From Antedon mediterranea (taxonomy: Eukaryota; Echinodermata; Crinoidea; Comatulida; Antedonidae), in the NCBI RefSeq assembly GCF_964355755.1, contig NC_092676.1, positions 15,232,288-15,296,287 of the forward strand: a stretch of DNA of 64,000 nt, read 5' to 3'. The notes below the pieces were generated by a model, which searched no databases, was not told the origin of the DNA, and was given only the letters and a program-made list of their open reading frames with translations. Below, in pieces: positions 890-63,278 of the stretch; position 1 is the stretch's first letter, and each line of letters begins with the position of its first letter. The position numbers and the translations under genes are program-made.

Positions 890-29585
<28,696 letters not shown>

Positions 29586-34271: not shown

Positions 34272-34663
34272 TTACATATCTAATGCTAGAAAATTATATG
34301 CATCTATGTCTATTTGATTTTCACAACACTTTTTTGCAAGTTCTCTAACAGTTGCCTTATTTCCATTGCGTTTTTTCCATACCAACAAACATTTGAATAT
34401 CGGTTCATGTACTATCATGTTAGAATCTCCAGTAGCCTGGTACATATCCACGTCTGTTAATCCAAGATTTCGAATGAAACTTCTCCAATTGGAACCCAAT
34501 TTACCAGCGAATGTGTTTAGTTGGTGTTCAGTAACTCTTGTGAGAGGAAATCTGTTTAAGTCATTGTTACCAAATTGATGAACAGATCTTTCTCTTTCTG
34601 GATTCTCTGTTTTTTGGTAGTAGGGTTGTTCTTGGGTTGAAGCATCTACATCATCGTTTGGAA
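34272..34663 (-). CDS. Last exon: death domain and stop codon
   Basis: 392 nt ending in TAA. It encodes a polar spacer (STQEQPYYQKTENPERERS) and then about 85 residues with the death-domain pattern: LNTFAGKLGSNWRSFIRNLG, LTDVDMYQ, VWKKRNGNKATVRELAKKC. The conserved tryptophans and the WxxRNGxxATVxxL helix-5 signature place it in the death superfamily, death subfamily. These domains self-associate or bind adaptors in apoptosis and innate immune signalling. The acceptor is TTTATTCATAG. Joining to the previous exon gives a valine codon. Confidence 0.88.
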
Positions 34664-37600
34664 CTATGAATAAAACAGACTGGCTATGTTAAATAACCAA
34701 ATATTATTGCATAACACATTTTTAAAATTATTAATAAATAAAAAACCAAGTTATCATTTGCAGTTCTATGGTTCCTTCTCTGTTTTATGAAACATTTGAA
34801 TGTACCTACAATAATGATTGGAGACATTTCGATTTTTTTAAAATGATTTGCACATCAATTGCCAAAGGTTCAGTGAATGTGTTCAGTGGCATTTTGTCAT
34901 TTGCTATACAGGGAGAGGTATGACGTCGTGAAACTGAAAAAATTACCACAATTATGGCGGAGAATAATTTTGTGATGATTTTTTGGAGATTGTTAAAAGT
35001 ATTAAAATTAATTTTACAGTGAATTATTATTATTATATGTGGAATATTTAATAAAGATTTTAATAATATAGCTTAGGGTCTAGGTCATTTTATGATCTAG
35101 CTAGGACTAAACTACCAACACTCTGCCTACTGTATATATAGAATGGTCTAAGCCCATGTACTTGTCATTACGTCATACATTCACTGGCTTGTTACCATGA
35201 ATATCCACTCCAATTAAAACATTCATATACAGTACATGTGGATGGGTACTGTCGTAAGGTAGTTTCCCGATTAATCGTACGATCAAACGGTACTGGGTAT
35301 GATCAACTAGCGTTCGTGTTCCCACCTAATCATCCATTCATAGAAGTACTGATGAAGATATCAATCTGTGGCGACAATAGAATGGACCCGAGACCTGGCT
35401 ATCTTCGACTTTTAAATAATAGAAAGTTTAGAAAAATGTTTTTGTTAGACTAGAAATGTACGTTGTATGTATATAGAAAAATGGTTGTAGTTTTCAAAAT
35501 TACGTTGTATAAGTTGCGATGTGAAAAACTGTTATTTGATCGTTAGTTGTCGTGTACATGAAGCAAAAATATAAATATAATAAAATAAAATAAAATAAAA
35601 AACGTTAGTAAAACTTTTAAAAAGAGTAAAGATATAAGGAAGAAAAGCAAAGAGATCATGGAGCGGCTGTACCAGAATATACAACACTAAGTATTGTAAA
35701 GTTAAAAACTAAAAATTTAGGCGATCTTGTCAAAGGTCAAGCGCCTTCAGCCTGCCACGTTTCGATATTCAATATTGAACTTGACCTGACGTGGTTCCAC
35801 AATATCTTTATATGAAAATGGTAGAATTTATAGAAAATAATTAATTCAAAATTTACCTAAAAATGGTTTTGAACTGAATCGATGGATGTCTTGTCGTTGT
35901 ATGGTTTTGGTTTGGTTTAAAAGTATGTTCGATAAAGTGCGTGAGCGTATTAGAATGAAATGCTAGCGTATACAATGTGCGCGATGTCAAATTGTGTACT
36001 GTGTGTGATACATGTAAGATTATAAGTGTATCGTACATTGTAGTAGAGTGAAAATAACATAGGTATAAAGGTAGGATATAAATAAGTAGTATAGGATGTA
36101 TAGAAAAAGGAATGGGTTGTTAGTTACAGGAAAGATTTTGAATGTGAGGAATGACTATGATGGTTAACTCCCACTAGAGATCTATGTCGGCACCTAGGCC
36201 TGTATAATGTCGTAAGGTAGTTTCCCGATTAATCGTACGATCAAACGGTACTGGGTATGATCAACTAGCGTTCGTGTTCCCACCTAATCATCCATTCATA
36301 GAAGTACTGATGAAGATATCAATCTGTGGCGACAATAGAATGGACCCGAGACCTGGCTATCTTCGACTTTTAAATAATAGAAAGTTTAGAAAAATGTTTT
36401 TGTTAGACTAGAAATGTACGTTGTATGTATATAGAAAAATGGTTGTAGTTTTCAAAATTACGTTGTATAAGTTGCGATGTGAAAAACTGTTATTTGATCG
36501 TTAGTTGTCGTGTACATGAAGCAAAAATATAAATATAATAAAATAAAATAAAATAAAAAACGTTAGTAAAACTTTTAAAAAGAGTAAAGATATAAGGAAG
36601 AAAAGCAAAGAGATCATGGAGCGGCTGTACCAGAATATACAACACTAAGTATTGTAAAGTTAAAAACTAAAAATTTAGGCGATCTTGTCAAAGGTCAAGC
36701 GCCTTCAGCCTGCCACGTTTCGATATTCAATATTGAACTTGACCTGACGTGGTTCCACAATATCTTTATATGAAAATGGTAGAATTTATAGAAAATAATT
36801 AATTCAAAATTTACCTAAAAATGGTTTTGAACTGAATCGATGGATGTCTTGTCGTTGTATGGTTTTGGTTTGGTTTAAAAGTATGTTCGATAAAGTGCGT
36901 GAGCGTATTAGAATGAAATGCTAGCGTATACAATGTGCGCGATGTCAAATTGTGTACTGTGTGTGATACATGTAAGATTATAAGTGTATCGTACATTGTA
37001 GTAGAGTGAAAATAACATAGGTATAAAGGTAGGATATAAATAAGTAGTATAGGATGTATAGAAAAAGGAATGGGTTGTTAGTTACAGGAAAGATTTTGAA
37101 TGTGAGGAATGACTATGATGGTTAACTCCCACTAGAGATCTATGTCGGCACCTAGGCCTGTATAATGTCGTAAGGTAGTTTCCCGATTAATCGTACGATC
37201 AAACGGTACTGGGTATGATCAACTAGCGTTCGTGTTCCCACCTAATCATCCATTCATAGAAGTACTGATGAAGATATCAATCTGTGGCGACAATAGAATG
37301 GACCCGAGACCTGGCTATCTTCGACTTTTAAATAATAGAAAGTTTAGAAAAATGTTTTTGTTAGACTAGAAATGTACGTTGTATGTATATAGAAAAATGG
37401 TTGTAGTTTTCAAAATTACGTTGATCATACCCAGTACCGTTTGATCGTACGATTAATCGGGAAACTACCTTACGACATTATACAGGCCTAGGTGCCGACA
37501 TAGATCTCTAGTGGGAGTTAACCATCATAGTCATTCCTCACATTCAAAATCTTTCCTGTAACTAACAACCCATTCCTTTTTCTATACATCCTATACTACT

Positions 37601-40600: not shown

Positions 40601-43600
40601 GAGTTAATTACTTATGACTTTTGTTAGACAATAATGTCTTGTAAACTTTGAAACACTTAGCCATGCAGTAGAATATCTCAAGGTTAGATATTTGAACTGG
40701 TAGCATAATATTGTCCCCCACCCCTGACAAAATAATTTTTAAATTTCATCATACAATACAGTACAAGAGCATATTAAATACTTAGCTACACAAAAAAAAA
40801 AACAAATAAAAAATAACAAGGAATAAACACATTTTTAGGTATTTATTTTTAGATTGTAATTATATAGAAAATGGTTACCTTTAATTTCATTTACAGCTGA
40901 TTCAACTGGTATGATCGCCAAATTAATGTCTGGATCTTTATAAAACAAAAAATAAGACATTCAAAAAAAAAATTGTGCAGTTTATTTATACTATATGAAA
41001 ACTGCCAAAGAAAAAAAAATAACGGATGATAATTTTGAAGCAGCTATTGTTTATATGTTTGCCCTACTCTGACATAGTTCACGTCAGAGTAGGGAAAACT
41101 TTTAGAATGAAAACTGTACTATAATAGTATCACACCCACTCATACAACAAAAAATTACAAACACATTTTAAAATTCCGATTGGTCCATGAGGTACGTTTG
41201 ACTACATTTGTGTATGTTTTCTATGCTATAATTTACCCTTTGGATTTTTGAAGTTATATTTAGATGGACTATTTTGTAATCATTAGTGACCATTTTAGGA
41301 AAGTTACAGCAAGACTGTATGATTAAATTAAAAAGACCCTGCATCCCGCCTATTGTTGCTCACTCCGCTTTGCAAAGTACTAAATATTTTCGTTTTGGGC
41401 CCCTGCCTCTAAAATTAATCCTACACATGCCTGTGACAACACCCTTTCTATTACGTAATCCCTTTCTATTTCCATTCCGTTTATATTACATAATTGTGTT
41501 GACTTAATGTGTTGTATAAACATGCCTAAATGAGTACAATACAATTACTTACACTTGCATTATGTACTGAAAAATGAAGGGAAATTTAATGTTTTAAGAT
41601 AAAACTGTGTAGCACCACCTATCAGTGGAAAGCGCATGGGGACGCGCAAACTGGGAAATAAAGGAGAAACAAAACCAACTCAACTACTTGTGCAACAAGT
41701 ATAAAATAAACACAAAACAAAGCATAAGACACATTAAAGGAAACATAATTGATTAATGAAAATATATGCCTGGAATATACAACGTGCAAACATAATTAAA
41801 AAGTACAATTACATTAAATAAACTTCACAATTTGTGGTACCACTTCCCAGCTCATTCCCAAACTGAACACATACTAATTTGTGGTACCATTTCCCAGCTC
41901 ATTCCCAAACTGCACACATACTAATTTGTGGTACCACTTCCCAGCTCCTTCCCAAACTGCACACATACTAATTTGTGGTACCACTTCCCAGCTCCTTCCC
42001 AAACTGCACACATACTAATTTGTGGTACCACTTCCCAGCTCATTCCCAAACTGCACACATACTAATTTGTGGTACCACTTCCCAGCTCATTCCAAAACTG
42101 CACACATACTAATTTGTGGTACCACTTCCCAGCTCATTCCAAAACTGCACACATACTAATTTGTGGTACCACTTCCCAGCTCATTCCCAAACTGCACACA
42201 TACTAATTTGTGATACCACTTCCCAGCTCATTCCCAAACTGCACACATACTAATTTGTGATACCACTTCCCAGCTCTTTCCCAAAATGCAAACTGCAAAC
42301 ATACTAATTTGTGGTACCTCTTCCCAGCTCATTCCCAAACTGCACACATACTAATTTGTGGTACCACTTCCCAGCTCATTCCCAAACTGCACACATACTA
42401 ATTTGTGGTACCACTTCCCAGCTCTTTCCCAAACTGCACACATATTAATTTGTGGTACCACTTCCCAGCTCATTCCCAAACTGCACAGATACTAATTTGT
42501 GGTACCACTTCCCAGCTCATTCCCAAACTGCACACATACTAATTTGTGGTACCACTTCCCAGCTCATTCCCAAACTGCACACATACTAATTTGTGGTACC
42601 ACTTCCCAGCTCATTCCCAAACTGCACACATACTAATTTGTGGTACCACTTCCCAGCTCATTCCAAAACTGCACACATACTAATTTGTGGTACCACTTCC
42701 CAGCTCATTCCCAAACTGCACACATACTAATTTGTGGTACCACTTCCCAGCTCATTCCCAAACTGCACACATACTAATTTGTTGAAATTGATTGATATTA
42801 TTGTTTGTAATTTGCATAAAAAAAAATAACCTGAAAAAGGTTACTTACTTTCATCTGTAACACCACCATCACATGTGTCTTTATTAGGCATTTTGTCTGA
42901 AAACAATGAGAAGAATGCATTACAGTATAACATAATGTAGTTTTATTTAAGTTTTACGTTAGTTACAAAATCCATTTAGAGTTTTCTAATTTGTTAATTG
43001 GAAATTAATAAAGTCACTTCTGCAGAATATTTTTTAAAAGATAATGTTTTTACTTATAAAAAGACAAAAAAAAAAAGTTTCAACCAATAACCCATTGACT
43101 ACCCGTCAATTTGAAAATACCCTGAAAGGTTTCTTACTTTCATCTGTAACACCACCATCACCTTTGTCATTATTAGGCGTTTTGTCTGAAAACAATGACA
43201 AGAATGCATTACAGTATAACATAATGTAGTTTTATTTAAGTTTTAGGTTAGTTACAAATTCAATTACAGTTTTCTAATTTTTAAATGGAAATCCTCAGCT
43301 CCTCAAGTTAGATTTCAAAAAGGAAATGGGGGCATAAGTTCCCACATCCCTTTTTTGAAAAGCTAAGAGAATAGGGTGCAGGTTAGGGAATATTGACTAG
43401 CAACATTATCTTACAAAAAGTAGGCCTACATGTGAATCTGAAAGTATCTGCTTAAAATAAAACTAAAATGAAACAAGAGGTGACGGAGGTCACTTAAAAA
43501 TGGAATTTTACAGTTTTCAGCAAGGTATGGTTACATGAATTGTTGCCATCCACCTAACTATATTATATGAAAGAAAATGATTATGAAATATATGGGTGTT

Positions 43601-46600
43601 ATAATTATAGTTGATACATCTAAATTTTATTTTTGTCAACTAAAACCAGTCAATGGCCTGATTTTCTCAACAATAAGAATGGCTAACAAAACAAATAACA
43701 CGTAAGTAGGAGGCTAACCATTCTCCATGTTATTCAGTCATATTCAGGTGGGTAAAAATCATGGGAAAGCTGGAGATAAAGAATCGGGCAAAAAGTTTAT
43801 CACATTTTGGCAACTTAAATAATGGTCACAGTACAGTTTTATATCGGACTGTCATTCCTTTCCAACCAAAATTGGTTTAAAAGCGGCTTTTCTTTTCTAA
43901 AATATCGCTTCATGCCTTTTTTTTTCTATTGTTCTTTTCAGTATACTGAAGTTTCAGAACAATCCCATCATTGATTGAATTATATTTATTCACCACGTCA
44001 GATGGCATAAGACCACTTGTTCTTAAATTAAACTGTAGGTTATGAGTACACAAAATGTTTGTGTGTACTTTAAAGAACATAGCACCAATGTTGTTTCCCA
44101 CACTATCCATCAAATTTTGAATAATAATAAAAATTTAGAGCATTAATTCCTCTCAATTTTGGACATTATCATTGTGGTCAAGTTTAACGGAAAATATTTA
44201 TATTGCACTTTTAAAACAGTGATTGTTTGAGTGCTGCTACTACAAATGGCACTCAGTCATCTGTCTACAACGACAGGGGCCGAGATGCACCAGTACAATG
44301 TGGCAACCCCAACGACAGGGGCCGAGATGCACCAGTACAACGTGGCAACCCCAACGACAGGGGCCGAGATGCACCAGTACAACGTGGCAACCCCAACGAC
44401 AGGGGCCGAGATGCACCAGTACAACGTGGCAACCCCAACGACAAGGGCCGAGATGCACCAGTACAACGTGGCAACCCCAACGACAGGGGCCGAGATGCAC
44501 CAGTACAACGTGGCAACCCCATATTCTCTGAAATATATGCACTGGATTCTTTAGTGCACATAAACCAGATGTGTAGATTGAACCTTTCAAGTCCATTCCA
44601 ACACCAGACCTATGGTTGAGGAGAGCATAGAACCTGTGCCAATTTTGTGGCTATGGTTTGTCAGTCTGTTCACAAAATAATGCAATAACAAATATATTAG
44701 ACATAACATATTAAACATAGGTAATTTAAATTATATTGTGGTATACCTGGCCTACAATGATGGCACTTCAAAACTTTGTAAAACAGAGCTTACTTACCAG
44801 AATCTGCAAATAACAATGGATCCGTTTCAGTTCCACCATTTATTGAAATCTCAGCTTTAACTATTTTTATAACAAGATAATTAAAAAATGTTTTTTATTT
44901 CTCAGGGTCATTCCTTCCTTCGATCTTAGTAATTGCAATATTAGATAGTTGTGTAACTGCTACATTTCTCAGTACTGTAATTTGTTCTCTTTCATTAAGT
45001 AATGATAAGATGAATGCCGCACAATATTTTTATGAAAATGTTTGAAAAGTACTACCATTATTTTTCCAATGACAATTTTGCAAAACTCCAGGAGGCGTAC
45101 TTAATTTCAAACTAACTTTTGTGGCGTTTGCATGTCACCCTATTTGTACACCTGGTTTTTCATTTTTGGCGCAGATTGTATGCTACTGTCGGTCCTCTAT
45201 CCTACCTTTGCTAAAACTATACAGTACATACATTCTTCAAAATTCCAATTTCTAAAAAAACTATGTCATTGAGACTATCTTTAACGATATATTGTCCTTC
45301 CAAAAACATGAAAAATTAGAATTAATAAAAAAACAAGACTTAGAATATGCCATTTCACAGTTTTAATAAAGTCACTTCCGCAGAAAAAAAATTTTAAAAG
45401 ATATTTTCACTTAAAAAAAAGACAAAATACCATACCAACCAAAAACACATTGACTTCCGTCAATTTGACTATTGTATTTTTGTTTTAAATTACAGTTTTT
45501 TCAGGTGAATGTTATTGTTACATAAAAGCGGCATATTCAACAAAAACATTTAAAAAAATTTTACATTTTTTTGCTGGATAAATATTTTAAATGTATGATG
45601 TAATACAATGAGTTAATTACTTATGACTTTTGTTAGACAATAATGTCTTGTAAACTTTGAAACACTTAGCCATGCAGTAGAATATCTCAAGGTTAGATAT
45701 TTGAACTGGTAGCATAATATTGTCCCCCACCCCTGACAAAATAATTTTTAAATTTCATCATACAATACAGTACAAGAGCATATTAAATACTTAGCTACAC
45801 AAAAAAAAAACAAATAAAAAATAACAAGGAATAAACACATTTTTAGGTATTTATTTTTAGATTGTAATTATATAGAAAATGGTTACCTTTAATTTCATTT
45901 ACAGCTGATTCAACTGGTATGATCGCCAAATTAATGTCTGGATCTTTATAAAACAAAAAATAAGACATTCAAAAAAAAAATTGTGCAGTTTATTTATACT
46001 ATCTGAAAACTGCCAAAGAAAAAAAAATAACGGATGATAATTTTGAAGCAGCTATTGTTTATATGTTTGCCCTACTCTGACATAGTTCACGTCAGAGTAG
46101 GGAAAACTTTTAGAATGAAAACTGTACTATAATAGTATCACACCCACTCATACAACAAAAAATTACAAACACATTTTAAAATTCCGATTGGTCCATGAGG
46201 TACGTTTGACTACATTTGTGTATGTTTTCTATGCTATAATTTACCCTTTGGATTTTTGAAGTTATATTTAGATGGACTATTTTGTAATCATTAGTGACCA
46301 TTTTAGGAAAGTTACAGCAAGACTGTATGATTAAATTAAAAAGACCCTGCATCCCGCCTATTGTTGCTCACTCCGCTTTGCAAAGTACTAAATATTTTCG
46401 TTTTTGGCCCCTGCCTCTAAAATTAATCCTACACATGCCTGTGACAACACCCTTTCTATTACGTAATCCCTTTCTATTTCCATTCCGTTTATATTACATA
46501 ATTGTGTTGACTTAATGTGTTGTATAAACATGCCTAAATGAGTACAATACAATTACTTACACTTGCATTATGTACTGAAAAATGAAGGGAAATTTAATGT

Positions 46601-49600: not shown

Positions 49601-52600
49601 TAAACCAGATGTGTAGATTGAACCTTTCAAGTCCATTCCAACACCAGACCTATGGTTGAGGAGAGCATAGAACCTGTGCCAATTTTGTGGCTATGGTTTG
49701 TCAGTCTGTTCACAAAATAATGCAATAACAAATATATTAGACATAACATATTAAACATAGGTAATTTAAATTATATTGTGGTATACCTGGCCTACAATTA
49801 CAATGATGGCACTTCAAAACTTTGTAAAACAGAGCTTACTTACCAGAATCTGCAAATAACAATGGATCCGTTTCAGTTCCACCATTTATTGAAATCTCAG
49901 CTTTAACTATTTTTATAACAAGATAATTAAAAAATGTTTTTTATTTCTCAGGGTCATTCCTTCCTTCGATCTTAGTAATTGCAATATTAGATAGTTGTGT
50001 AACTGCTACATTTCTCAGTACTGTAATTTGTTCTCTTTCATTAAGTAATGATAAGATGAATGCTGCACAATATTTTTATGAAAATGTTTGAAAAGTACTA
50101 CCATTATTTTTCCAATGACAATTTTGCAAAACTCCAGGAGGCGTACTTAATTTCAAACTAACTTTTGTGGCGTTTGCATGTCACCCTATTTGTACACCTG
50201 GTTTTTCATTTTTGGCGCAGATTGTATGCTACTGTCGGTCCTCTATCCTACCTTTGCTAAAACTATACAGTACATACATTCTTCAAAATTCCAATTTCTA
50301 AAAAAACTATGTCATTGAGACTATCTTTAAAGATATATTGTCCTTCCAAAAACATGAAAAATTAGAATTAATAAAAAAACAAGACTTAGAATATGCCATT
50401 TCACAGTTTTAATAAAGTCACTTCCGCAGAAAAAAAATTTTAAAAGATATTTTCACTTAAAAAAAAGACAAAATACCATACCAACCAAAAACACATTGAC
50501 TTCCGTCAATTTGACTTCCGTCAATTTGACTATTGTATTTTTGTTTTAAATTACAGTTTTTTCAGGTGAATGTTATTGTTACATAAAAGCGGCATATTCA
50601 ACAAAAACATTTAAAAAAATTTTACATTTTTTGCTGGATAAATATTTTAAATGTATGATGTAATACAATGAGTTAATTACTTATGACTTTTGTTAGACAA
50701 TAATGTCTTGTAAACTTTGAAACACTTAGCCATGCAGTAGAATATCTCAAGGTTAGATATTTGAACTGGTAGCATAATATTGTCCCCCACCCCTGACAAA
50801 ATAATTTTTAAATTTCATCATACAATACAGTACAAGAGCATATTAAATACTTAGCTACACAAAAAAAAAACAAATAAAAAATAACAAGGAATAAACACAT
50901 TTTTAGGTATTTATTTTTAGATTGTAATTATATAGAAAATGGTTACCTTTAATTTCATTTACAGCTGATTCAACTGGTATGATCGCCAAATTAATGTCTG
51001 GATCTTTATAAAACAAAAAATAAGACATTCAAAAAAAAAATTGTGCAGTTTATTTATACTATATGAAAACTGCCAAAGAAAAAAAAATAACGGATGATAA
51101 TTTTGAAGCAGCTATTGTTTATATGTTTGCCCTACTCTGACATAGTTCACGTCAGAGTAGGGAAAACTTTTAGAATGAAAACTGTACTATAATAGTATCA
51201 CACCCACTCATACAACAAAAAATTACAAACACATTTTAAAATTCCGATTGGTCCATGAGGTACGTTTGACTACATTTGTGTATGTTTTCTATGCTATAAT
51301 TTACCCTTTGGATTTTTGAAGTTATATTTAGATGGACTATTTTGTAATCATTAGTGACCATTTTAGGAAAGTTACAGCAAGACTGTATGATTAAATTAAA
51401 AAGACCCTGCATCCCGCCTATTGTTGCTCACTCCGCTTTGCAAAGTACTAAATATTTTCGTTTTGGGCCCCTGCCTCTAAAATTAATCCTACACATGCCT
51501 GTGACAACACCCTTTCTATTACGTAATCCCTTTCTATTTCCATTCCGTTTATATTACATAATTGTGTTGACTTAATGTGTTGTATAAACATGCCTAAATG
51601 AGTACAATACAATTACTTACACTTGCATTATGTACTGAAAAATGAAGGGAAATTTAATGTTTTAAGATAAAACTGTGTAGCACCACCTATCAGTGGAAAG
51701 CGCATGGGGACGCGCAAACTGGGAAATAAAGGAGAAACAAAACCAACTCAACTACTTGTGCAACAAGTATAAAATAAACACAAAACAAAGCATAAGACAC
51801 ATTAAAGGAAACATAATTGATTAATGAAAATATATGCCTGGAATATACAACGTGCAAACATAATTAAAAAGTACAATTACATTAAATAAACTTCACAATT
51901 TGTGGTACCACTTCCCAGCTCATTCCCAAACTGAACACATACTAATTTGTGGTACCATTTCCCAGCTCATTCCCAAACTGCACACATACTAATTTGTGGT
52001 ACCACTTCCCAGCTCCTTCCCAAACTGCACACATACTAATTTGTGGTACCACTTCCCAGCTCCTTCCCAAACTGCACACATACAAATTTGTGGTACCACT
52101 TCCCAGCTCATTCCCAAACTGCACACATACTAATTTGTGGTACCACTTCCCAGCTCATTCCAAAACTGCACACATACTAATTTGTGGTACCACTTCCCAG
52201 CTCATTCCAAAACTGCACACATACTAATTTGTGGTACCACTTCCCGGCTCATTCCCAAACTGCACACATACTAATTTGTGATACCACTTCCCAGCTCATT
52301 CCCAAACTGCACACATACTAATTTGTGATACCACTTCCCAGCTCTTTCCCAAAATGCAAACTGCAAACATACTAATTTGTGGTACCTCTTCCCAGCTCAT
52401 TCCCAAACTGCACACATACTAATTTGTGGTACCACTTCCCAGCTCATTCCCAAACTGCACACATACTAATTTGTGGTACCACTTCCCAGCTCTTTCCCAA
52501 ACTGCACACATATTAATTTGTGGTACCACTTCCCAGCTCATTCCCAAACTGCACAGATACTAATTTGTGGTACCACTTCCCAGCTCATTCCCAAACTGCA

Positions 52601-55600
52601 CACATACTAATTTGTGGTACCACTTCCCAGCTCATTCCCAAACTGCACACATACTAATTTGTGGTACCACTTCCCAGCTCATTCCCAAACTGCACACATA
52701 CTAATTTGTGGTACCACTTCCCAGCTCATTCCAAAACTGCACACATACTAATTTGTGGTACCACTTCCCAGCTCATTCCCAAACTGCACACATACTAATT
52801 TGTGGTACCACTTCCCAGCTCATTCCCAAACTGCACACATACTAATTTGTTGAAATTGATTGATATTATATATATTATATATATATATAACATAATGTAG
52901 TTTTATTTAAGTTTTACGTTAGTTACAAAATCCATTTAGAGTTTTCTAATTTGTTAATTGGAAATTAATAAAGTCACTTCTGCAGAATATTTTTTAAAAG
53001 ATAATGTTTTTACTTATAAAAAGACAAAAAAAAAAAGTTTCAACCAATAACCCATTGACTACCCGTCAATTTGAAAATACCCTGAAAGGTTTCTTACTTT
53101 CATCTGTAACACCACCATCACCTTTGTCATTATTAGGCGTTTTGTCTGAAAACAATGACAAGAATGCATTACAGTATAACATAATGTAGTTTTATTTAAG
53201 TTTTAGGTTAGTTACAAATTCAATTACAGTTTTCTAATTTTTAAATGGAAATCCTCAGCTCCTCAAGTTAGATTTCAAAAAGGAAATGGGGGCATAAGTT
53301 CCCACATCCCTTTTTTGAAAAGCTAAGAGAATAGGGTGCAGGTTAGGGAATATTGACTAGCAACATTATCTTACAAAAAGTAGGCCTACATGTGAATCTG
53401 AAAGTATCTGCTTAAAATAAAAAAAAGAGGTGACGGAGGTCACTTAAAAATGGAATTTTACAGTTTTCAGCAAGGTATGGTTACATGAATTGTTGCCATC
53501 CACCTAACTATATTATATGAAAGAAAATGATTATGAAATATATGGGTGTTATAATTATAGTTGATACATCTAAATTTTATTTTTGTCAACTAAAACCAGT
53601 CAATGGCCTGATTTTCTCAACAATAAGAATGGCTAACAAAACAAATAACACGTAAGTAGGAGGCTAACCATTCTCCATGTTATTCAGTCATATTCAGGTG
53701 GGTAAAAATCATGGGAAAGCTGGAGATAAAGAATCGGGCAAAAAGTTTATCACATTTTGGCAACTTAAATAATGGTCACAGTACAGTTTTATATCGGACT
53801 GTCATTCCTTTCCAACCAAAATTGGTTTAAAAGCGGCTTTTCTTTTCTAAAATATCGCTTCATGCCTTTTTTTTTCTATTGTTCTTTTCAGTATACTGAA
53901 GTTTCAGAACAATCCCATCATTGATTGAATTATATTTATTCACCACGTCAGATGGCATAAGACCACTTGTTCTTAAATTAAACTGTAGGTTATGAGTACA
54001 CAAAGTGTTTGTGTGTACTTTAAAGAACATAGCACCAATGTTGTTTCCCACACTATCCATTACATTTTAAATACAGTAATAATAAAAATTTAGAGCATTA
54101 ATTCCTCTCAATTTTGGACATTATCATTGTGGCCAAGTTTAACGGAAAATATTTATATTGCACTTTTAAAACAGTGATTGTTTGAGTGCTGCTACTACAA
54201 ATGGCACTCAGTCATCTGTCTACAACGACAGGGGCCGACATGCACCAGTACAACGTGGCAACCCCAACGACAGGGGCCGACATGCACCAGTACAACGTGG
54301 CAACCCCAACGACAGGGGCCGACATGCACCAGTACAACGTGGCAACCCCAACGACAGGGGCCGACATGCACCAGTACAACGTGGCAACCCCAACGACAGG
54401 GGCCGACATGCACCAGTACAACGTGGCAACCCCAACGACAGGGGCCGACATGCACCAGTACAACGTGGCAACCCCAACGACAGGGGCCGACATGCACCAG
54501 TACAACGTGGCAACCCCAACGACAGGGGCCGACATGCACCAGTACAACGTGGCAACCCCAACGACAGGGGCCGAGATGCACCAGTACAACGTGGCAACCC
54601 AAACGACAGGGGCCGACATGCACCAGTACAACGTGGCAACCCCAACGACAGGGGCCGACATGCACCAGTACAACGTGGCAACCCCAACGACAGGAGCCGA
54701 GATGCACCAGTACAACGTGGCAACCCCAACGACAGGGGCCGACATGCACCAGTACAACGTGGCAACCCCAACGACAGGAGCCGAGATGCACCAGTACAAC
54801 GTGGCAACCCCAACGACAGGGGCCGAGATGCACCAGTACAACGTGGCAACCCCAACGACAGGGGCCGAGATGCACCAGTACAACGTGGCAACCCCAACGA
54901 CAGGGGCCGAGATGCACCAGTACAACTTGGCAACCCCAACGACAGGGGCCGAGATGCACCAGTACAACTTGGCAACCCCAACGACAGGGGCCGAGATGCA
55001 CCAGTACAACGTGGCAACCCCATAATCTCGGAAATATATGCACTGGATTCTTTAGTGCACATAAACCAGATGTGTAGATTGAACCTTTCAAATCCATTCC
55101 ACCACCAGACCTATGGTTGAGGAGAGCATAGAACCTGTGCCAATTTTGTGGCTATGGTTTGTTAGTATGTTCACAAAATAATGCAATAACAAATATATTA
55201 GACATAACATATTAAACATAGGTAATTTAAATTATATTGTGGTATACCTGGCCTACAATGATGGCACTTCAAAACTTTGTAAAACAGAGCTTACTTACCA
55301 GAATCTGCAAATAACAATGGATCCGTTTCAGTTCCACCATTTATTGAAATCTCAGCTTTAACTATTTTTATAACAAGATAATTAAAAAATGTTTTTTATT
55401 TCTCAGGGTCATTCCTTCCTTCGATCTTAGTAATTGCAATATTAGATAGTTGTGTAACTGCTACATTTCTCAGTACTGTAATTTGTTCTCTTTCATTAAG
55501 TAATGATAAGATGAATGCCGCACAATATTTTGATGAAAATGTACGACCATTGTTTTTCCAATGACAATTTTGCAAAACTCCAGGAGGCGTACTTAATTTC

Positions 55601-58600
55601 AAACTGACTTTTGTGGCGTTTGCATGTCACCCTTTTTGTACACCTGATTTTTCATTTTTGGCGCAGATTGTATGCTACTGTCGGTCCTCTATCCTACCTT
55701 TTCTAAAACTATACAGTACATACATTCTTCAAAATTCCAATTTCTAAAAAAACTATGTCATTGAGACTATCTTTAAAGATATATTGTCCTTCCAAAAACA
55801 TGAAAAATTAGGATTAATAAAAAAACAAGACTTAGAATATGCCATTTTACAGTTTTAATAGTCACTTCCGCAGAAAAAAAATTTTAAAAGATGTTTTCAC
55901 TTAAAAAAAGACAAAATAAACAGTTAAATTCAACCAAAAACCCATTGACTTCCGTCAATTTGACTATTGTATTTTTGTTTTAAATTACAGTTTTTTCAGG
56001 TGAATGTTATTGTTACATAAAAGCGGCATATTCAACAAAAACATTTAAAACAATTTTACATTTTTTGCTGGATAAATATTTTAAATGTATGATGTAATAC
56101 AATGAGTTAATTACTTATGACTTTTGTTAGACAATAATGTCTTGTAAACTTTGAAACAATTAGCCATGCAGTAGAATATCTCAAGGTTAGATATTTGAAC
56201 TGGTAGCATAATATTGTCCCCCACCCCTGACAAAATAATTTTTAAATTTCATACATCATACAATACAGTACAAGAGCATATTAAATACTTAGCTACACAA
56301 AAAAAAACCAAATAAAAAATAACAAGGAAAACACATTTTTAGGTATTTATTTTTTGATTGTAATTATATAGAAAATGGTTACCTTTAATTTCATTTACAG
56401 CTGATTCAACTGGTATGATCGCCAAATTAATGTCTGGATCTTTATAAAACAAAAAATAAGACATTCAAAAAAAAAATTGTGCAGTTTATTTATACTATAT
56501 GAAAACTGCCAAAGAAAAAAAAATAATGGATGATAATTTTGAAGCAGCTATTGTGTATATGTTTGCCCTACTCTGACATAGTTCACGTCAGAGTAGGGAA
56601 AACTTTTAGAATGAAAACTGTACTATAATAGTATCACACCCACTCATACAAAAAAAAATTACAAACACATTTTAAAATTCCGATTGGTCCATGAGGTACG
56701 TTTGACTACATTTGTGTATATTTTCTATGCTATAATTTACCCTTTGGATTTTTGAAATTATATTTAGATGGACTATTTTGTAATCATTAGTGACCATTTT
56801 AGGGAAGTTACAGCAAGACTGTATGATTAAATTAAAAAGCCCCTGCATCCCGCCTATTGTTGCTCACTCCGCTTTGCAAAGTACTAAATATTTTCGTTTT
56901 GGGCCCCTGCCTCTAAAATTAATCCTACACATGCCTGTGACAACACCCTTTCTATTACGCAATCCCTTTCTATTTCCATTCCGTTTATATTACATAACTG
57001 TGTTGACTTAGTGTGTTGTATAAACATGCCTAAATGAGTACAATACGATTACTTACACTTGCATTATGTACTGAAAAATGAAGGGAAATTTAATGTTTTA
57101 AGATAAAACTGTGTAGCACCACCTATCAGTGGGAAGCGCATGGGGACGCGCAAACTGGGAAATAAAGGAGAAACAAAACCAACTCAACTACTTGTGCAAC
57201 AAGTATAAAATAAACACAAAACAAAGCATAAGACACATTAAAGGAAACATAATTGATTAATGAAAATATATGCCTGGAATATACAACGTGCAAACATAAT
57301 TAAAAAGTACAATTACATTAAATAAACTTCACAATTTGTGGTACCACTTCCCAGCTCATTCCCAAACTGCACACATACTAATTTGTGGTACCACTTCCCA
57401 GCTCATTCCCAAACTGCACACATACTAATTTGTGGTACCACTTCCCAGCTCATTCCCAAACTGCACACATACTAATTTGTGGTACCACTTCCCAGCTCAT
57501 TCCCAAACTGCACACATACTAATTTGTGGTACCACTTCCCAGCTCTTTCCCTAACTGCACACATACTAATTTGTGGTACCACTTCCCAGCTCATTCCCAA
57601 ACTGCACACATACTAATTTGTGGTACCACTTCCCAGCTCATTCCCAAACTGCACACATACTAATTTGTGGTACCACTTCCCAGCTCATTCCCAAACTGCA
57701 CACATACTAATTTGTGGTACCACTTCCCAGCTCTTTCCCAAACTGCACACATACTAATTTGTGGTACCACTTCCCAGCTCTTTCCCAAACTGCACACATA
57801 CTAATTTGTGGTACCACTTCCCAGCTCATTCCCAAACTGCACACATACTAATTTGTGGTACCACTTCCCAGCTCTTTCCCAAACTGAACACATACTAATT
57901 TGTGGTACCACTTCCCAGCTCTTTCCCAAACTGCACACATACTAATTTGTGGTACCACTTCCCAGCTCATTCCCAAACTGCACACATACTAATTTGTGGT
58001 ACCACTTCCCAGCTCATTCCCAAACTGCACACATACTAATTTGTGGTACCACTTCCCAGCTCATTCCCAAACTGCACACATACTAATTTGTGGTACCACT
58101 TCCCAGATCATTCCCAAACTGCACACATACTAATTTGTGGTACCACTTCCCAGCTCATTCCCAAACTGCACACATACTAATTTGTGGTACCACTTCCCAG
58201 CTCTTTCCCAAACTGCACACATACTAATTTGTGGTACCACTTCCCAGCTCATTCCCAAACTGCACACATACTAATTTGTGGTACCACTTTCCAGCTCATT
58301 CCCAAACTGCACACATACTAATTTGTGGTACCACTTCCCAGCTCATTCCCAAACTGCACACATACTAATTTGTGGTACCACTTCCCAGCTCATTCCCAAA
58401 CTGCACACATACTAATTTGTGGTACCACTTCCCAGCTCTTTTCCAAACTGCACACATACTAATTTGTGGTACCACTTCCCAGCTCATTCCCAAACTGCAC
58501 ACATACTAATTTGTGGTACCACTTCCCAGCTCATTCCCAATCTGCACACATACTAATTTGTGGTACCACTTCCCAGCTCATTCCCAAACTGCACACATAC

Positions 58601-61600
58601 TAATTTGTGGTACCACTTCCCAGCTCATTCCCAAACTGCACACATACTAATTTGTGGTACCACTTCCCAGCTCTTTCCCAAACTGCACACATACTAATTT
58701 GTGGTACCACTTCCCAGCTCTTTCCCAAACTGCACACATACTAATTTGTGGTACCACTTCCCAGCTCATTCCCAAACTGCACACATACTAATTTGTGGTA
58801 CCACTTCCCAGCTCATTCCCAAACTGCACACATACTAATTTGTGGTACCACTTCCCAGCTCATTCCCAATCTGCACACATACTAATTTGTGGTACCACTT
58901 CCCAGCTCATTCCCAAACTGCACACATACTAATTTGTGGTACCACTTCCAGCTCTTTCCCAAACTGCACACATACTAATTTGTGGTACCACTTCCCAGCT
59001 CATTCCCAAACTGCACACATACTAATTTGTGGTACCACTTCCCAGCTCATTCCCAAACTGCACACATACTAATTTGTGGTACCACTTCCCAGCTCATTCC
59101 CAAACTGCACACATACTAATTTGTGATACCACTTCCCAGCTCTTTCCCAAACTGAACACATACTAATTTGTGGTACCACTTCCCAGCTCTTTCCCAAACT
59201 GCACACATACTAATTTGTGGTACCACTTCCCAGCTCATTCCCAAACTGCACACATACTAATTTGTGGTACCACTTCCCAGCTCATTCCCAAACTGCACAC
59301 ATACTAATTTGTGGTACCACTTCCCAGCTCATTCCCAAACTGCACACATACTAATTTGTGGTACCACTTCCCAGCTCATTCCCAAACTGCACACATACTA
59401 ATTTGTGGTACCACTTCCCAGCTCATTCCCAAACTGCACACATACTAATTTGTGGTACCACTTCCCAGCTCTTTCCCAAACTGAACACATACTAATTTGT
59501 GGTACCACTTCCCAGCTCTTTCCCTAACTGCACACATACTAATTTGTGGTACCACTTCCCAGCTCTTTCCCAAACTGCACACATACTAATTTGTGGTACC
59601 ACTTCCCAGCTCATTCCCTAACTGCACACATACTAATTTGTGGTACCACTTCCCAGCTCATTCCCAAACTGCACACATACTAATTTGTGGTACCACTTCC
59701 CAGCTCTTTCCCAAACTGCACACATACTAATTTGTGGTACCACTTCCCAGCTCATTCCCAAACTGCACACATACTAATTTGTGGTACCACTTCCCAGCTC
59801 ATTCCCAAACTGCACACATACTAATTTGTGGTACCACTTCCCAGCTCTTTCCCAAACTGAACACATACTAATTTGTGGTACCACTTCCCAGCTCATTCCC
59901 AATCTGCACACATACTAATTTGTGGTACCACTTCCCAGCTCATTCCCAAACTGCACACATACTAATTTGTGGTACCACTTCCCAGCTCATTCCCAAACTG
60001 CACACATACTAATTTGTGGTACCACTTCCCAGCTCTTTCCCAAACTGCACACATACTAATTTGTGGTACCACTTCCCAGCTCTTTCCCAAACTGCACACA
60101 TACTAATTTGTGGTACCACTTCCCAGCTCATTCCCAAACTGCACACATACTAATTTGTGGTACCACTTCCCAGCTCATTCCCAAACTGCACACATACTAA
60201 TTTGTGGTACCACTTCCCAGCTCATTCCCAATCTGCACACATACTAATTTGTGGTACCACTTCCCAGCTCATTCCCAAACTGCACACATACTAATTTGTG
60301 GTACCACTTCCAGCTCTTTCCCAAACTGCACACATACTAATTTGTGGTACCACTTCCCAGCTCATTCCCAAACTGCACACATACTAATTTGTGGTACCAC
60401 TTCCCAGCTCATTCCCAAACTGCACACATACTAATTTGTGGTACCACTTCCCAGCTCATTCCCAAACTGCACACATACTAATTTGTGATACCACTTCCCA
60501 GCTCTTTCCCAAACTGAACACATACTAATTTGTGGTACCACTTCCCAGCTCTTTCCCAAACTGCACACATACTAATTTGTGGTACCACTTCCCAGCTCAT
60601 TCCCAAACTGCACACATACTAATTTGTGGTACCACTTCCCAGCTCATTCCCAAACTGCACACATACTAATTTGTGGTACCACTTCCCAGCTCATTCCCAA
60701 ACTGCACACATACTAATTTGTGGTACCACTTCCCAGCTCATTCCCAAACTGCACACATACTAATTTGTGGTACCACTTCCCAGCTCATTCCCAAACTGCA
60801 CACATACTAATTTGTGGTACCACTTCCCAGCTCTTTCCCAAACTGAACACATACTAATTTGTGGTACCACTTCCCAGCTCTTTCCCTAACTGCACACATA
60901 CTAATTTGTGGTACCACTTCCCAGCTCTTTCCCAAACTGCACACATACTAATTTGTGGTACCACTTCCCAGCTCATTCCCTAACTGCACACATACTAATT
61001 TGTGGTACCACTTCCCAGCTCATTCCCAAACTGCACACATACTAATTTGTGGTACCACTTCCCAGCTCTTTCCCAAACTGCACACATACTAATTTGTGGT
61101 ACCACTTCCCAGCTCATTCCCAAACTGCACACATACTAATTTGTGGTACCACTTCCCAGCTCATTCCCAAACTGCACACATACTAATTTGTGGTACCACT
61201 TCCCAGCTCTTTCCCAAACTGAACACATACTAATTTGTGGTACCACTTCCCAGCTCATTCCCAAACTGCACACATACTAATTTGTGGTACCACTTCCCAG
61301 CTCATTCCCAAACTGCACACATACTAATTTGTTGAAATTGATTGATATTATTGTTTGTACTTTGCATTAAAAAAAATACCCTGAAAAAGGTTACTTACTT
61401 TCATCTGTAACACCACCATCACATGTGTCTTTATTAAGCATTTTGTCTGAAAACAATGACAAGAATGCATTACAGTATAACATAATGTAGTTTTATTTAA
61501 GTTTTAGGTTAGTTACAAAATCCATTTAGAGTTTTCTAATTTGTTAAATGGAAATTAATAAAGTCACTTCTGCAGAAAATTTTTTAAAAGATAATGTTTT

Positions 61601-63278
61601 TACTTATAAAAAGACAAAATAAACAGTTTCAACCAATAACCCATTGACTACCCGTCAATTTGAAAATACCCTGAAAGGTTTCTTACTTTCATCTGTAACA
61701 CCACCATCACCTTTGTCATTATTAGGCGTTTTGTCTGAAAACAATGACAAGAATGCATTACAGTATAACATAATGTAGTTTTATTTAAGTTTTAGGTTAG
61801 TTACAAATTCAATTACAGTTTTCTAATTTTTAAATGGAAATCCTCAGCTCCTCAAGTTAGATTTCAAAAAGGAAATGGGAGCATAAGTTCCCCTGTCCCT
61901 TTTTTGAAAAGCTAAGAGAATAGGGTGCAGGTTAGGGAATATTGACTAGCAACATTATCTTACAAAAAGTAGGCCTACATGTGAATCTGAAAGTATCTGC
62001 TTAAAATAAAACTAAAATGAAACAAGAGGTGACGGAGGTCACTTAAAAATGGAATTTTACAGTTTTCAGCAAGGTATGGTTACATGAATTGTTGCCATCC
62101 ACCTAACTATATTATATGAAAGAAAATGATTATGAAATATATGGGTGTTATAATTATAGTTGATACATCTAAATGTTATTTAGGACGATATACTGCAGTC
62201 TTTGTATAGAAATGCAAGATATTTTGGTTTTAATTATCGTGAGAGTGGTCTCAAATGTGAGTCTCAATATATAGGTACGGAAAGTTGCAAGACTTCAATC
62301 AATCTTTTCACAGTTGGCAGGCCTAAGCCCAAATTTTGAATTAAGCATTCATATTAAAAATAGTAACAGTTTACAAGTAGCCCTTGCTAATAAATTAGCA
62401 CTACAAAAAAAAGTAATTCAGAATCATAAGATTAAGTAACTTTTAAAAAATCTTTAAACTCTTATGAATTTCATAAATCAATATGGCAATTAGAAAAATA
62501 CTAATACAAATTGTAAGAAAATAATGAAACAAAATACATGCATGGTCCATGCATACTTTTGTTGTGCATACAAAAATGCTAATAAACTAGTAATAAAATA
62601 AATAATAAAATTAAAATACAGCATTATTGGATGGTAGCTTATGTAGAATTGTTGCTTACCACAGCATTGCACTTTTTCTTTTAAGCTTTTCCAACGTTGT
62701 GGACAGAAACATTTTATCACTGTGAGTATTGCTCCCACTATTGCACCACCAACAACTACAACTATGTTACAACAAAAGACAAGATATAGGATAAAAACAC
62801 TACCGGTATTTATAAAGATCATTTGAAAAGAAAAGTTAAAGCAGAGCCTAGGGCCAAAATTGCTGGTATTTATACAAATGCGATATAGAGTAATTCTCTG
62901 TCTACACCATCAAACTTTATGTGACAAAAAAAGTGTAATGTGCCCAAATATGGTATTGATATGACATCATCATGTCAATATATGATGGGCACATCACATT
63001 TTTTGTCACATGGTGGGGCTGAGGTAAGATAATTTTACGAATATGGACGGAAATTGCACTGTAATTTATTTGGATACTGTAGCATTGCAATGATGATGTT
63101 TGCAGAACGTCGGTGTAGATAGAGCTTAAGATTGCAGTATACAGTGTCAGTAGTTATTCTCAGATCTACATTACTGTCTTCAGTTAATTGGCTTTACAGT
63201 GCATACCATAAACCGGCCAAAACTTGAGTGCTTCTGTGAGAGAGGTATTATTAGTGGCTTCTGTGCTGTTAGACATAT
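34272..63278 (-). CDS. Transmembrane death-domain protein with repeated exon cassette
   Basis: I know no named family with this architecture. Seventeen exons, all phase 1-1 except the last, join into one open frame of about 438 residues. The order is a glycosylation-rich N terminus without a signal peptide (MSNSTEATNNTS), one hydrophobic helix (VYVVVVGGAIVGAILTVI), a basic cysteine-containing juxtamembrane segment, a linker of 16-, 16-, 19- and 21-residue modules repeated with cassette duplication, and a C-terminal death domain. Positive charges after the helix predict the N terminus outside and the death domain in the cytosol, as in signalling receptors that recruit death-domain adaptors. 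Each junction codon was checked and stays open. The model is inferred from sequence alone; alternative skipping of in-frame modules would be easy because all are phase 1-1. A further upstream exon is possible. Confidence 0.7.
34664..35250. other. Last-intron sequence before the satellite
   Basis: AT-rich intron with no exon recognised. Confidence 0.5.
35251..35453 (+). other. 66-codon open frame at satellite unit end
   Basis: Every intact unit carries a frame beginning CRKVVSRLIV and ending NNRKFRKMFLLD before TAG, with protein-like composition (CGDNRMDPRPGYLRLLNN). In internal copies a stop lies just upstream and there is no ATG; only the outermost left copy gains an ATG from flanking sequence. 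It may be the relic 3' end of a transposon gene. I do not recognise it. Confidence 0.3.
35251..40350. repeat. Head-to-head array of 958-bp satellite units
   Basis: Units start at 35251, 36209 and 37167 in one orientation; the third is cut after 257 bp at 37423. From 37420 the same unit runs in the opposite orientation: a 57-bp end (37420-37476), then full units 37477-38434, 38435-39392 and 39393-40350. Both outer edges carry GTCGTAAGGTAGTTTCCCG, facing inwards. The inversion joint shares GTTG. Left-arm copies read ...AACGTTTTTTA-like and right-arm copies ...AACGATTTTTA at the same place, so the arms differ by fixed variants. The array lies within the last intron of the death-domain gene and abuts the first 5-kb cassette. 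Confidence 0.95.
40879..40935 (-). CDS. Linker mini-exon PDI, unit 1
   Basis: 57 nt, phase 1-1, encoding PDINLAIIPVESAVNEIK between a TTTATAAAG acceptor and GTAACC donor. In the model it joins directly to the death-domain exon. Confidence 0.65.
41062..41094. repeat. 12-bp-stem hairpin, unit 1
   Basis: CCCTACTCTGAC, a 9-nt loop, then GTCAGAGTAGGG. The same hairpin recurs at 46070-46102, 51130-51162 and 56566-56598. No function is assigned. Confidence 0.85.
41829..42781. repeat. 47-bp minisatellite, unit 1 (about 20 copies)
   Basis: Contiguous copies of a 47-bp unit containing AATTTGTGGTACCACTTCCC and AGCTCATTCCCAAACTGCAC. Copies differ by CATT/CTTT and a few single bases. There are no spacers. 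Confidence 0.98.
42849..42896 (-). CDS. Linker mini-exon KMP, unit 1
   Basis: 48 nt, phase 1-1, encoding KMPNKDTCDGGVTDE. The acceptor is TTGTTTTCAG and the donor GTAAGT. It is a duplicate of the neighbouring KTP exon 289 bp away. Confidence 0.65.
43138..43185 (-). CDS. Linker mini-exon KTP, unit 1
   Basis: 48 nt, phase 1-1, encoding KTPNNDKGDGGVTDE. The acceptor is TTGTTTTCAG and the donor GTAAGA. Confidence 0.65.
44269..44520. repeat. 42-bp minisatellite, unit 1 (6 copies)
   Basis: Exactly 252 bp of a 42-bp unit (AACGACAGGGGCCGAGATGC, then ACCAGTACAACGTGGCAACC). It is open in all six frames because 42 is divisible by three and the unit contains no stop trinucleotide on either strand. Confidence 0.97.
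44798..44860 (-). CDS. Linker mini-exon KAE, unit 1
   Basis: 63 nt, phase 1-1, encoding KAEISINGGTETDPLLFADS. The acceptor is TATAAAAATAG and the donor GTAAGTAAG. Confidence 0.65.
45887..45943 (-). CDS. Linker mini-exon PDI, unit 2
   Basis: 57 nt, phase 1-1, same sequence as the unit 1 copy (PDINLAIIPVESAVNEIK), with intact splice sites. Confidence 0.63.
46837..47790. repeat. 47-bp minisatellite, unit 2 (about 20 copies)
   Basis: Same monomer order and same variant positions as unit 1, showing that the array was copied along with the cassette and did not arise independently. Confidence 0.98.
47857..47904 (-). CDS. Linker mini-exon KMP, unit 2
   Basis: 48 nt, phase 1-1, identical in product to the unit 1 copy. 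Confidence 0.63.
48146..48193 (-). CDS. Linker mini-exon KTP, unit 2
   Basis: 48 nt, phase 1-1, identical in product to the unit 1 copy. Confidence 0.63.
49267..49560. repeat. 42-bp minisatellite, unit 2 (7 copies)
   Basis: 294 bp. One copy carries ACCGACAGG in place of AACGACAGG. Confidence 0.97.
49844..49906 (-). CDS. Linker mini-exon KAE, unit 2
   Basis: 63 nt, phase 1-1, same product as unit 1 (KAEISINGGTETDPLLFADS). Confidence 0.63.
50947..51003 (-). CDS. Linker mini-exon PDI, unit 3
   Basis: 57 nt, phase 1-1, same product as the other PDI copies. In the model it joins directly to a KTP exon because the KMP exon of this unit is deleted; the reading frame is unaffected. Confidence 0.63.
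51897..52850. repeat. 47-bp minisatellite, unit 3 (about 20 copies)
   Basis: Same variant order as units 1 and 2 with a few private changes (for example TACAAATTTG near 52082 and CCCGGCTC near 52243). Confidence 0.98.
52851..52890. other. Deletion scar replacing the KMP exon in unit 3
   Basis: After GATTGATATTAT the sequence becomes a TA-rich run and resumes at ACATAATGTAGTTTT. Relative to units 1, 2 and 4 the KMP exon and its splice sites are missing. Confidence 0.9.
53098..53145 (-). CDS. Linker mini-exon KTP, unit 3
   Basis: 48 nt, phase 1-1, same product as the other KTP copies, with intact TTTTCAG acceptor and GTAAGA donor. Confidence 0.63.
54224..55021. repeat. 42-bp minisatellite, unit 3 (19 copies)
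   Basis: 798 bp, exactly 19 units. Early copies read GCCGACATG and later ones mostly GCCGAGATG, with interspersed variants. The plus strand has a 312-codon open frame here purely from the repeat. Confidence 0.97.
55299..55361 (-). CDS. Linker mini-exon KAE, unit 3
   Basis: 63 nt, phase 1-1, same product as the other KAE copies. Confidence 0.63.
56383..56439 (-). CDS. Linker mini-exon PDI, unit 4
   Basis: 57 nt, phase 1-1, same product as the other PDI copies although this is the most diverged cassette. Confidence 0.65.
57332..61331. repeat. 47-bp minisatellite, unit 4 (about 85 copies)
   Basis: About 4.0 kb. A higher-order repeat is visible: markers such as the one-base-short monomer ACCACTTCCAGCTC (near 58942 and 60304) and CTTTCCCTAACTGC (near 59520 and 60882) recur 1362 bp apart, which equals 29 monomers minus one base. 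Confidence 0.97.
61399..61446 (-). CDS. Linker mini-exon KMP, unit 4
   Basis: 48 nt, phase 1-1, encoding KMLNKDTCDGGVTDE; the proline of other copies is leucine here. Splice sites are intact. Confidence 0.65.
61687..61734 (-). CDS. Linker mini-exon KTP, unit 4
   Basis: 48 nt, phase 1-1, same product as the other KTP copies. In the model it is the first linker exon after the transmembrane exon, and the junction codon is GAC. Confidence 0.65.
62660..62761 (-). CDS. Transmembrane exon of the death-domain gene
   Basis: 102 nt, phase 1-1. It encodes a hydrophobic segment (VVVGGAIVGAILTVI) with small residues in a GxxxG-like pattern, followed by KCFCPQRWKSLKEKVQCC. The basic residues and clustered cysteines suggest the cytosolic side and possible palmitoylation. 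The acceptor is GTAACATAG and the donor GTAAGC. An unspliced frame reading upstream into the intron also opens with an ATG at 62822 and could be an alternative start. Confidence 0.72.
62892..63130. mobile_element. Palindromic MITE in intron 1 of the death-domain gene
   Basis: The outer inverted ends are CTCTGTCTACACC and GGTGTAGATAGAG. A nearly perfect inner hairpin (about 62920-63011) pairs ATGTGACAAAAAAAGTG with its complement. TTAA adjoins the right end but the left end is TAATT, so the target duplication is uncertain. Confidence 0.6.
63207..63278 (-). CDS. First visible exon of the death-domain gene
   Basis: 72 nt after acceptor TTTTTTATAG, with ATG two bases in (63276). It encodes MSNSTEATNNTSLTEALKFW and PVY and leaves 1 nt in phase 1 before GTATGC. 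Three overlapping NxS/T sequons (N3, N9, N10) in the first 12 residues and no signal peptide suggest a signal-anchor protein with its N terminus outside. The acceptor means at least one 5' exon lies upstream; it may be only untranslated. Confidence 0.6.

Follow-up and report, generated by a model that had tools for sequence, protein, structure and literature searches.

A gene of the crinoid Antedon mediterranea with tandem exon cassettes between a transmembrane exon and a death-domain exon

The gene and its exon cassettes

The stretch of DNA considered here – a 64,000-nucleotide (nt) window from one assembly of the crinoid Antedon mediterranea, to which all positions refer – carries on its minus strand a gene in which a transmembrane exon is followed by cassettes of mini-exons and then by a death-domain exon (Table 1). 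Spliced in phase 1, the minus-strand exons between 34.2 and 63.3 kb join into an open chain that is 438 residues long, with 23 at the N-terminus, 34 from the transmembrane exon, 251 of tether and 130 from the last exon. No stop and no frame break occurs in any of the 17 exons, and the junction codons are all open. The 14 mini-exons, every one of them phase 1-1, are of four types, A and B (48 nt), C (57 nt) and D (63 nt), with the peptides DKTPNNDKGDGGVTDE for A, NKMPNKDTCDGGVTDE for B (L replaces P in B1), NPDINLAIIPVESAVNEIK for C and VKAEISINGGTETDPLLFADS for D. At the DNA level the four copies of A, the four of C and the three of D are identical within each type; B1 is one base off B3 and B4. 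The tether thus reads [A B C D][A C D][A B C D][A B C], or 72+56+72+51 residues, with a full unit of 72.

A sequence-only reading had anticipated much of this, and the number, sizes, phase, positions and strand of the mini-exons, the open junction codons and the repeating linker of some 72 residues are all borne out by the splice reconstruction and by the isoform records described below. Its four repeated units of 5 kb stand as four cassettes but not as four equal ones: the spacings from one exon A to the next are 8589, 4952 and 5008 bp, cassette 1 measuring 8.6 kb, and cassettes 2 and 4 are each one exon short, cassette 2 being without exon B and cassette 4 without exon D. Nor are the splice sites clean throughout, as had been claimed, for the acceptor of exon C has A at -3 and that of exon D is A-rich.

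A splice-site scan is by itself not decisive for the exon structure. Stricter settings returned 0 and 4 candidates; at thresholds of 1/0.5, for exons of 36-99 nt in phase 1, the gene strand between 34.2 and 63.4 kb gave 12 candidates, namely 11 mini-exons together with the first coding exon. Missing are the three D exons, which score below these thresholds and were recovered only at a looser setting (-2/0.5). At 1/0.5 the opposite strand of the region also gave one candidate; elsewhere in the window the minus strand, which contains another multi-exon gene there, gave 12 and the plus strand 2. The phase-0 count for the gene region was 15. The looser setting, in phase 1, gave 31 on the gene strand, 1 on the opposite strand, and 42 (minus) and 7 (plus) in the rest of the window. 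Because the cassettes are near-identical copies, moreover, the 14 exons amount to three or four independent exon types.

We accept the exon structure because two recorded isoforms match, residue by residue, the chain obtained by splicing. When 5.8 billion proteins were searched with the 438-residue chain, two entries came back, both named 'uncharacterized protein [Antedon mediterranea]' and both from one contig. The first, P0001 (isoform X2, 422 residues; the entry represents two member sequences, of which one was compared), is the chain minus B3, that is, 13 of the 14 mini-exon peptides and the death domain. The second, P0002 (isoform X3, 317 residues), is the chain with all 14 mini-exons followed by VCFIHSSKR. 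Their ends are accounted for by two acceptors: joined to 34663, exon C4 is followed by VPNDDVDAS and the death domain, and joined to 34679, 16 nt upstream, it gives exactly the X3 ending. By usual practice such isoform models, above all the X3 model without a death domain, would rest on RNA reads. The X3 stop falls inside the last coding exon of the death-domain form; an mRNA with its stop codon in the last exon escapes exon-junction-dependent decay, and the X3 mRNA should do so if that exon is also the last. The records support a single gene, running in one recorded isoform from the transmembrane exon through the death-domain exon, in which tandem genomic cassettes have lengthened the linker, much as had been proposed. 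The expected death domain also stands, the exon matching PF00531 at 35.5 bits against a cut-off of 22.6 (32.8 in P0001), as does the transmembrane segment, judged by its hydropathy peak (Table 1).

Table 1. Features of the window, in the order of transcription for the cassette gene, followed by intronic minisatellites and the neighbouring gene.
Feature	Positions	Strand	Remarks
First coding exon in recorded models	63207..63278	-	MSNSTEATNNTSLTEALKFWPVY, 23-residue N-terminus, N-x-S/T at 3, 9, 10, without Cys
Transmembrane exon, phase 1-1	62660..62761	-	19-residue hydropathy peak 2.4, one GxxxG, then basic Cys-containing juxtamembrane stretch
Mini-exon A1, 48 nt	61687..61734	-	
Mini-exon B1, 48 nt	61399..61446	-	
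Mini-exon C1, 57 nt	56383..56439	-	
Mini-exon D1, 63 nt	55299..55361	-	With ETDPLL
Mini-exon A2, 48 nt	53098..53145	-	
Mini-exon C2, 57 nt	50947..51003	-	
Mini-exon D2, 63 nt	49844..49906	-	
Mini-exon A3, 48 nt	48146..48193	-	
Mini-exon B3, 48 nt	47857..47904	-	Left out of isoform X2
Mini-exon C3, 57 nt	45887..45943	-	
Mini-exon D3, 63 nt	44798..44860	-	
Mini-exon A4, 48 nt	43138..43185	-	
Mini-exon B4, 48 nt	42849..42896	-	
Mini-exon C4, 57 nt	40879..40935	-	Final one before death-domain exon
16-nt extension in isoform X3	34664..34679	-	Alternative acceptor, exon start 34679; frameshift to VCFIHSSKR-stop, death domain lost
Last coding exon	34272..34663	-	Pre-domain segment and death domain PF00531; stop codon 34274-34272
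47-bp minisatellite, cassette 1	57333..61332		85.1 copies, intronic
47-bp minisatellite, cassette 2	51897..52850		20.1 copies, intronic
47-bp minisatellite, cassette 3	46837..47790		20.1 copies, intronic
47-bp minisatellite, cassette 4	41829..42782		20.1 copies, intronic
42-bp minisatellite	54223..55022		19 copies, intronic
42-bp minisatellite	49266..49561		7 copies, intronic
42-bp minisatellite	44268..44521		6 copies, intronic
LDLR class A	19914-20240	-	
EGF-like stretch	7783-8079	-	FXa_inhibition 32.5 bits, below cut-off 33.4
YWTD/class B	5222-5578	-	18.7, below cut-off 21
YWTD/class B	2636-2920	-	79
YWTD/class B	726-1088	-	23.9

Duplication of the cassettes

The introns record how the array grew. 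Setting aside the minisatellites and the B2-deletion patch (U2 52855-52890), cassette 1 differs from cassettes 2, 3 and 4 at 55/2828 (1.94%), 60/2888 and 41/2135 intron sites, about 2% in each case, whereas the differences among cassettes 2-4 number 10/3477, 6/2705 and 4/2765 (0.14-0.29%), the last of these (0.14%) being between cassettes 3 and 4. Identity therefore runs from about 98%, for cassette 1 against the others, up to 99.9%, with cassettes 2-4 closest. The simplest account of this pattern is one older and two younger duplications, and unequal exchange is the likely mechanism. The cassette appears to contain an older exon duplication as well, because A and B with their flanks align at 159 of 175 positions (3 gap columns); the two would be copies of one exon.

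A TA-rich patch at 52851-52890 marks the deletion of exon B from cassette 2, and the similarity of cassette 4 to the other cassettes stops at 40349. Mosaic recombination, considered for cassettes 2 and 3 on an apparent difference in divergence between their S1 and S2 parts (P 8e-07), was rejected: 16 of the 22 S1 differences lie within 52862-52885, in the B-deletion patch. The 47-bp minisatellite arrays of cassettes 2-4, each 954 bp long and only 1-3 bases apart, must have been copied along with the cassette. Cassette number rests on one assembly and may well still be polymorphic, which is plausible because cassettes 3 and 4 have diverged by 0.14%; allelic divergence in many marine invertebrates exceeds that figure.

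Several features of the repeats call for comment in their own right. The 42-bp repeat is a multiple of three in length and free of stops, so that each of the six frames stays open over long distances (up to 318 residues); these open frames are intronic and not genes. Through the large 47-bp array G strongly exceeds C on the exon-bearing strand, the plus-strand GC skew over 56001-60000 being -0.407. From 35248 to 40353 lie head-to-head 958-bp units, with about 2.3 copies facing one way and 3.1 the other, which are 99.7-100% alike in the pieces compared; this array touches the end of cassette 4 and takes up the greater part of the intron that precedes the death-domain exon. No Pfam match was obtained for an open frame that overlaps it (35142-35453) or for six further frames outside the gene (0 of 7). 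Elsewhere on the minus strand, at 726-20240, a Pfam scan places exons of an LDL-receptor-type gene.

The predicted protein and its possible roles

Compared by sequence with proteins of solved structure, the death domain is closest to CRADD (E 5.9e-07), followed by RIPK1 (2e-04 and weaker), THO subunit 1 (0.0038), TNFR1 (0.013) and FADD (0.049); NRADD (E 1.3) comes last of 25 PDB sequences. In the Pfam scan of P0001, Death was the only family above its cut-off and no ZU5 was found, and a search with one 72-residue unit gave no match in PDB (E up to 10) or Pfam (E up to 1). There is no TRAF6-type motif; the TRAF2-type STQE occurs once. Hydropathy exceeds 1.6 in 19-residue windows starting at 16-26, the only hydrophobic stretch of the chain, with N-x-S/T sites only before it and a basic Cys-containing stretch after it. 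Under the positive-inside rule this fits a single-pass protein with its N-terminus outside and its C-terminus inside. The 251-residue tether would then be cytoplasmic; it is acidic, with 56 acidic and 20 basic residues in the first 249, and is probably disordered, because these 249 residues fall to the disordered side when charge is set against hydropathy.

Protein searches for relatives returned only the gene's own isoforms, by a method that requires shared 5-residue words and similar length, so that relatives may exist. The queries were the 438-residue chain (the 7996 candidates sharing most words were scored), an artificial 243-residue form with a single cassette (281 candidates) and residues 285-422 of P0001 (21 candidates).

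Our preferred explanation, held with slightly better than even confidence, is that the gene encodes a membrane-tethered death-domain scaffold whose disordered tether is tolerated and growing, and for which splicing is the main switch. The protein would expose a tiny glycosylatable N-terminus outside the cell and carry, behind its transmembrane helix and disordered tether, a C-terminal death domain nearest those of CRADD (RAIDD) and RIPK1. Clustered via its transmembrane segment or a partner receptor, it would recruit a death-domain adaptor. Use of acceptor 34663 would retain the death domain; use of 34679 would remove it and leave a membrane form able to compete. The tether would have grown by duplication of the A-B-C-D cassette, probably through unequal exchange, and its growth would be tolerated since the cassette exons are all phase 1-1 and code for flexible sequence.

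Two suggestions of the sequence-only reading are not upheld. It had offered a receptor, but the isoforms begin 23 residues before the transmembrane exon, and these outside residues hold no cysteine and no domain and leave no room for an extracellular one; a ligand-binding receptor is thus unlikely, barring a further exon upstream that the annotation lacks and that may lie past the end of the window. It had also offered a decoy produced by change in copy number; the isoform without a death domain arises instead from an alternative 3' splice site.

A number of observations weigh against a scaffold with a tolerated tether. Its function is predicted from its domains, and the isoform records are database models, probably built from the same assembly. 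A full-length structure model made without an alignment is poor (mean predicted local distance difference test, pLDDT, 38.2); a single-sequence model of the death domain has several helices and a mean pLDDT of 62.0, and a fold search with it listed no death-domain entry among the best 50 of 67 matches (top E 0.87). The tether gives sub-threshold Pfam matches to GlcV_C_terminal (19.1 and 20.5 bits; cut-off 27.6) and Cthe_2159 (13.0; cut-off 25.8). Finally, between cassettes 1 and 2 none of 168 exon sites has changed where 3.3 changes are expected from the introns (P 0.037 per site, 0.097 with clustered changes counted once; before removal of the deletion patch, binomial P 0.015 and Fisher 0.032), a contrast that hints at constraint rather than pure tolerance. 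The cassette pairs are not independent, and the remaining comparisons give 1/216 changed for cassettes 1 and 3 (P 0.06; 0.167 with clusters counted once), 1/153 for cassettes 1 and 4 (P 0.206; 0.402) and uninformative values for the other three pairs (P 0.6-0.9). No constraint is seen on the A/B pair, because 4 of 48 exon sites have changed, all four altering the amino acid, against 9 of 124 in the flanks. The evidence for selection on the tether is weak and mixed, and selection is not demonstrated.

Among alternative explanations the one that survives best, though we think it unlikely, is that of the sequence-only reading, which makes cassette number a functional dial, such that natural changes in copy number tune the reach or clustering of the death domain. 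The 4/2765 intron differences between cassettes 3 and 4 bespeak a young array that may be polymorphic, minisatellite arrays vary between cassettes (about 20 against 85 copies of the 47-bp repeat; 6, 7 and 19 of the 42-bp repeat), and the skipping of B3 in X2 alters tether length too. Yet the lack of constraint on the A/B pair speaks against such a dial, the cassettes resemble ordinary recent duplications, and to a disordered tether already 251 residues long an extra unit of 72 may matter little.

Somewhat less probable again is a caspase-releasable reservoir resembling UNC5, in which A and B exons each supply a putative DxxD-G site and cleavage would free the death domain. Seven DxxD[GSAN] sites lie in the tether and one more, DDVDA, where the last exon begins, while 5000 composition shuffles of the first 249 tether residues gave a mean of 1.47 and a maximum of 7; the two middle positions of the motif are not the same in A and B, but both D residues and the G are retained. 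PMC5253643 gives DXXD as the caspase-3 pattern, and according to PMC2361483 caspase-3 recognises UNC5H in vitro at a site that precedes the death domain. The sites stem, however, from one or two ancestral exons, so that their count is not independent: shuffling gives a site by chance in 20% of A exons and 8.5% of B exons, and two in A+B in 2.5%. The P3/P2 residues also differ from those of classic caspase sites.

We hold two further alternatives to be improbable, and about equally so. The first sees the tether as a trafficking module in which the predicted acidic dileucine of the D exons, ETDPLL, multiplies endocytic or lysosomal sorting signals. Three copies are present, and [D/E]XXXL[L/I] is counted among three established endocytic motifs in the account of PMC2882754; but the three derive from duplication of one exon, cassette 4 has no exon D, and a dileucine motif appears in 4.9% of 20000 shuffled D exons, a rate low enough to invite interest and still a chance match of about one in twenty. 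Both caspase-type and dileucine motifs, multiplying with the cassettes, are best regarded as leads rather than findings. The second holds that the cassette count is an assembly error or that the gene is decaying. Cassettes that are nearly identical, together with an array of 85 copies and the head-to-head 958-bp units, are indeed hard to assemble, and cassettes 2 and 4 are incomplete; against this, the cassettes differ in bases and array lengths, all 17 exons are free of stops and frame breaks, and two isoform records exist, though probably from the same assembly. Least probable of all is a tether of variable copy number whose cassettes would add caspase-type and dileucine sites, with copy number and splicing (B skipping and the death-domain acceptor) together setting release, movement or silencing.

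Relation to known systems

The sequence-only reading knew of no family described with such a layout. A precedent exists in the KIV-2 array of human LPA, described in PMC4378929 as a 5.5-kb cassette of two exons present in 1 to more than 40 copies. The Antedon gene shares with it an intragenic multi-exon cassette of about 5 kb in near-identical tandem copies, with protein length set by cassette number; here too, near-identical multi-kilobase tandem cassettes of phase-symmetric exons lie within one gene. LPA differs in being a plasma protein of folded kringles, with two exons to the cassette and known polymorphism, whereas the Antedon cassettes encode a probably disordered cytoplasmic tether before a death domain.

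Among membrane proteins the plan resembles that of NRADD/NRH2, a p75NTR paralogue, described in PMC7828832 as single-pass with an N-glycosylated N-terminus and a C-terminal death domain; the Antedon protein is likewise predicted to be single-pass with a glycosylatable N-terminus. Zebrafish Nradd, however, has four cysteine-rich domains according to the same source, and the Antedon protein none. Its death domain, moreover, is nearest CRADD and RIPK1 rather than NRADD or p75NTR. Mammalian NRADD has a shortened ectodomain, and we know of no cassettes in NRADD. With UNC5 dependence receptors the protein shares a candidate caspase-type motif between membrane and death domain (as outlined for UNC5 in PMC2361483), but it is without ZU5 and without room for a netrin-binding ectodomain. 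A transmembrane segment and a C-terminal death domain are common to it and to death receptors of the TNF-receptor type, whose extracellular cysteine-rich domains the Antedon isoforms lack. CRADD and RIPK1, the best sequence matches to the domain, are a cytosolic adaptor and a kinase, neither with a transmembrane segment or a repeated tether. As predicted, then, the protein is missing a defining feature of each receptor family, be it cysteine-rich domains, a p75-type domain or ZU5.

Cassette arrays of this kind are known; the Antedon array lies in a membrane protein with a death domain, between that domain and the membrane. We met no description of such a gene in the open-licence literature searched, although one may have been published. 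For now it stands as a clearly delimited gene of a single species, its function predicted from sequence. If our explanation is correct, it would provide naturally graded spacers between membrane and death domain, with which the influence of tether length and of site number on death-domain signalling could be studied. It would also show, in a crinoid, size variation of the LPA type in a gene presumed to act in cell death.

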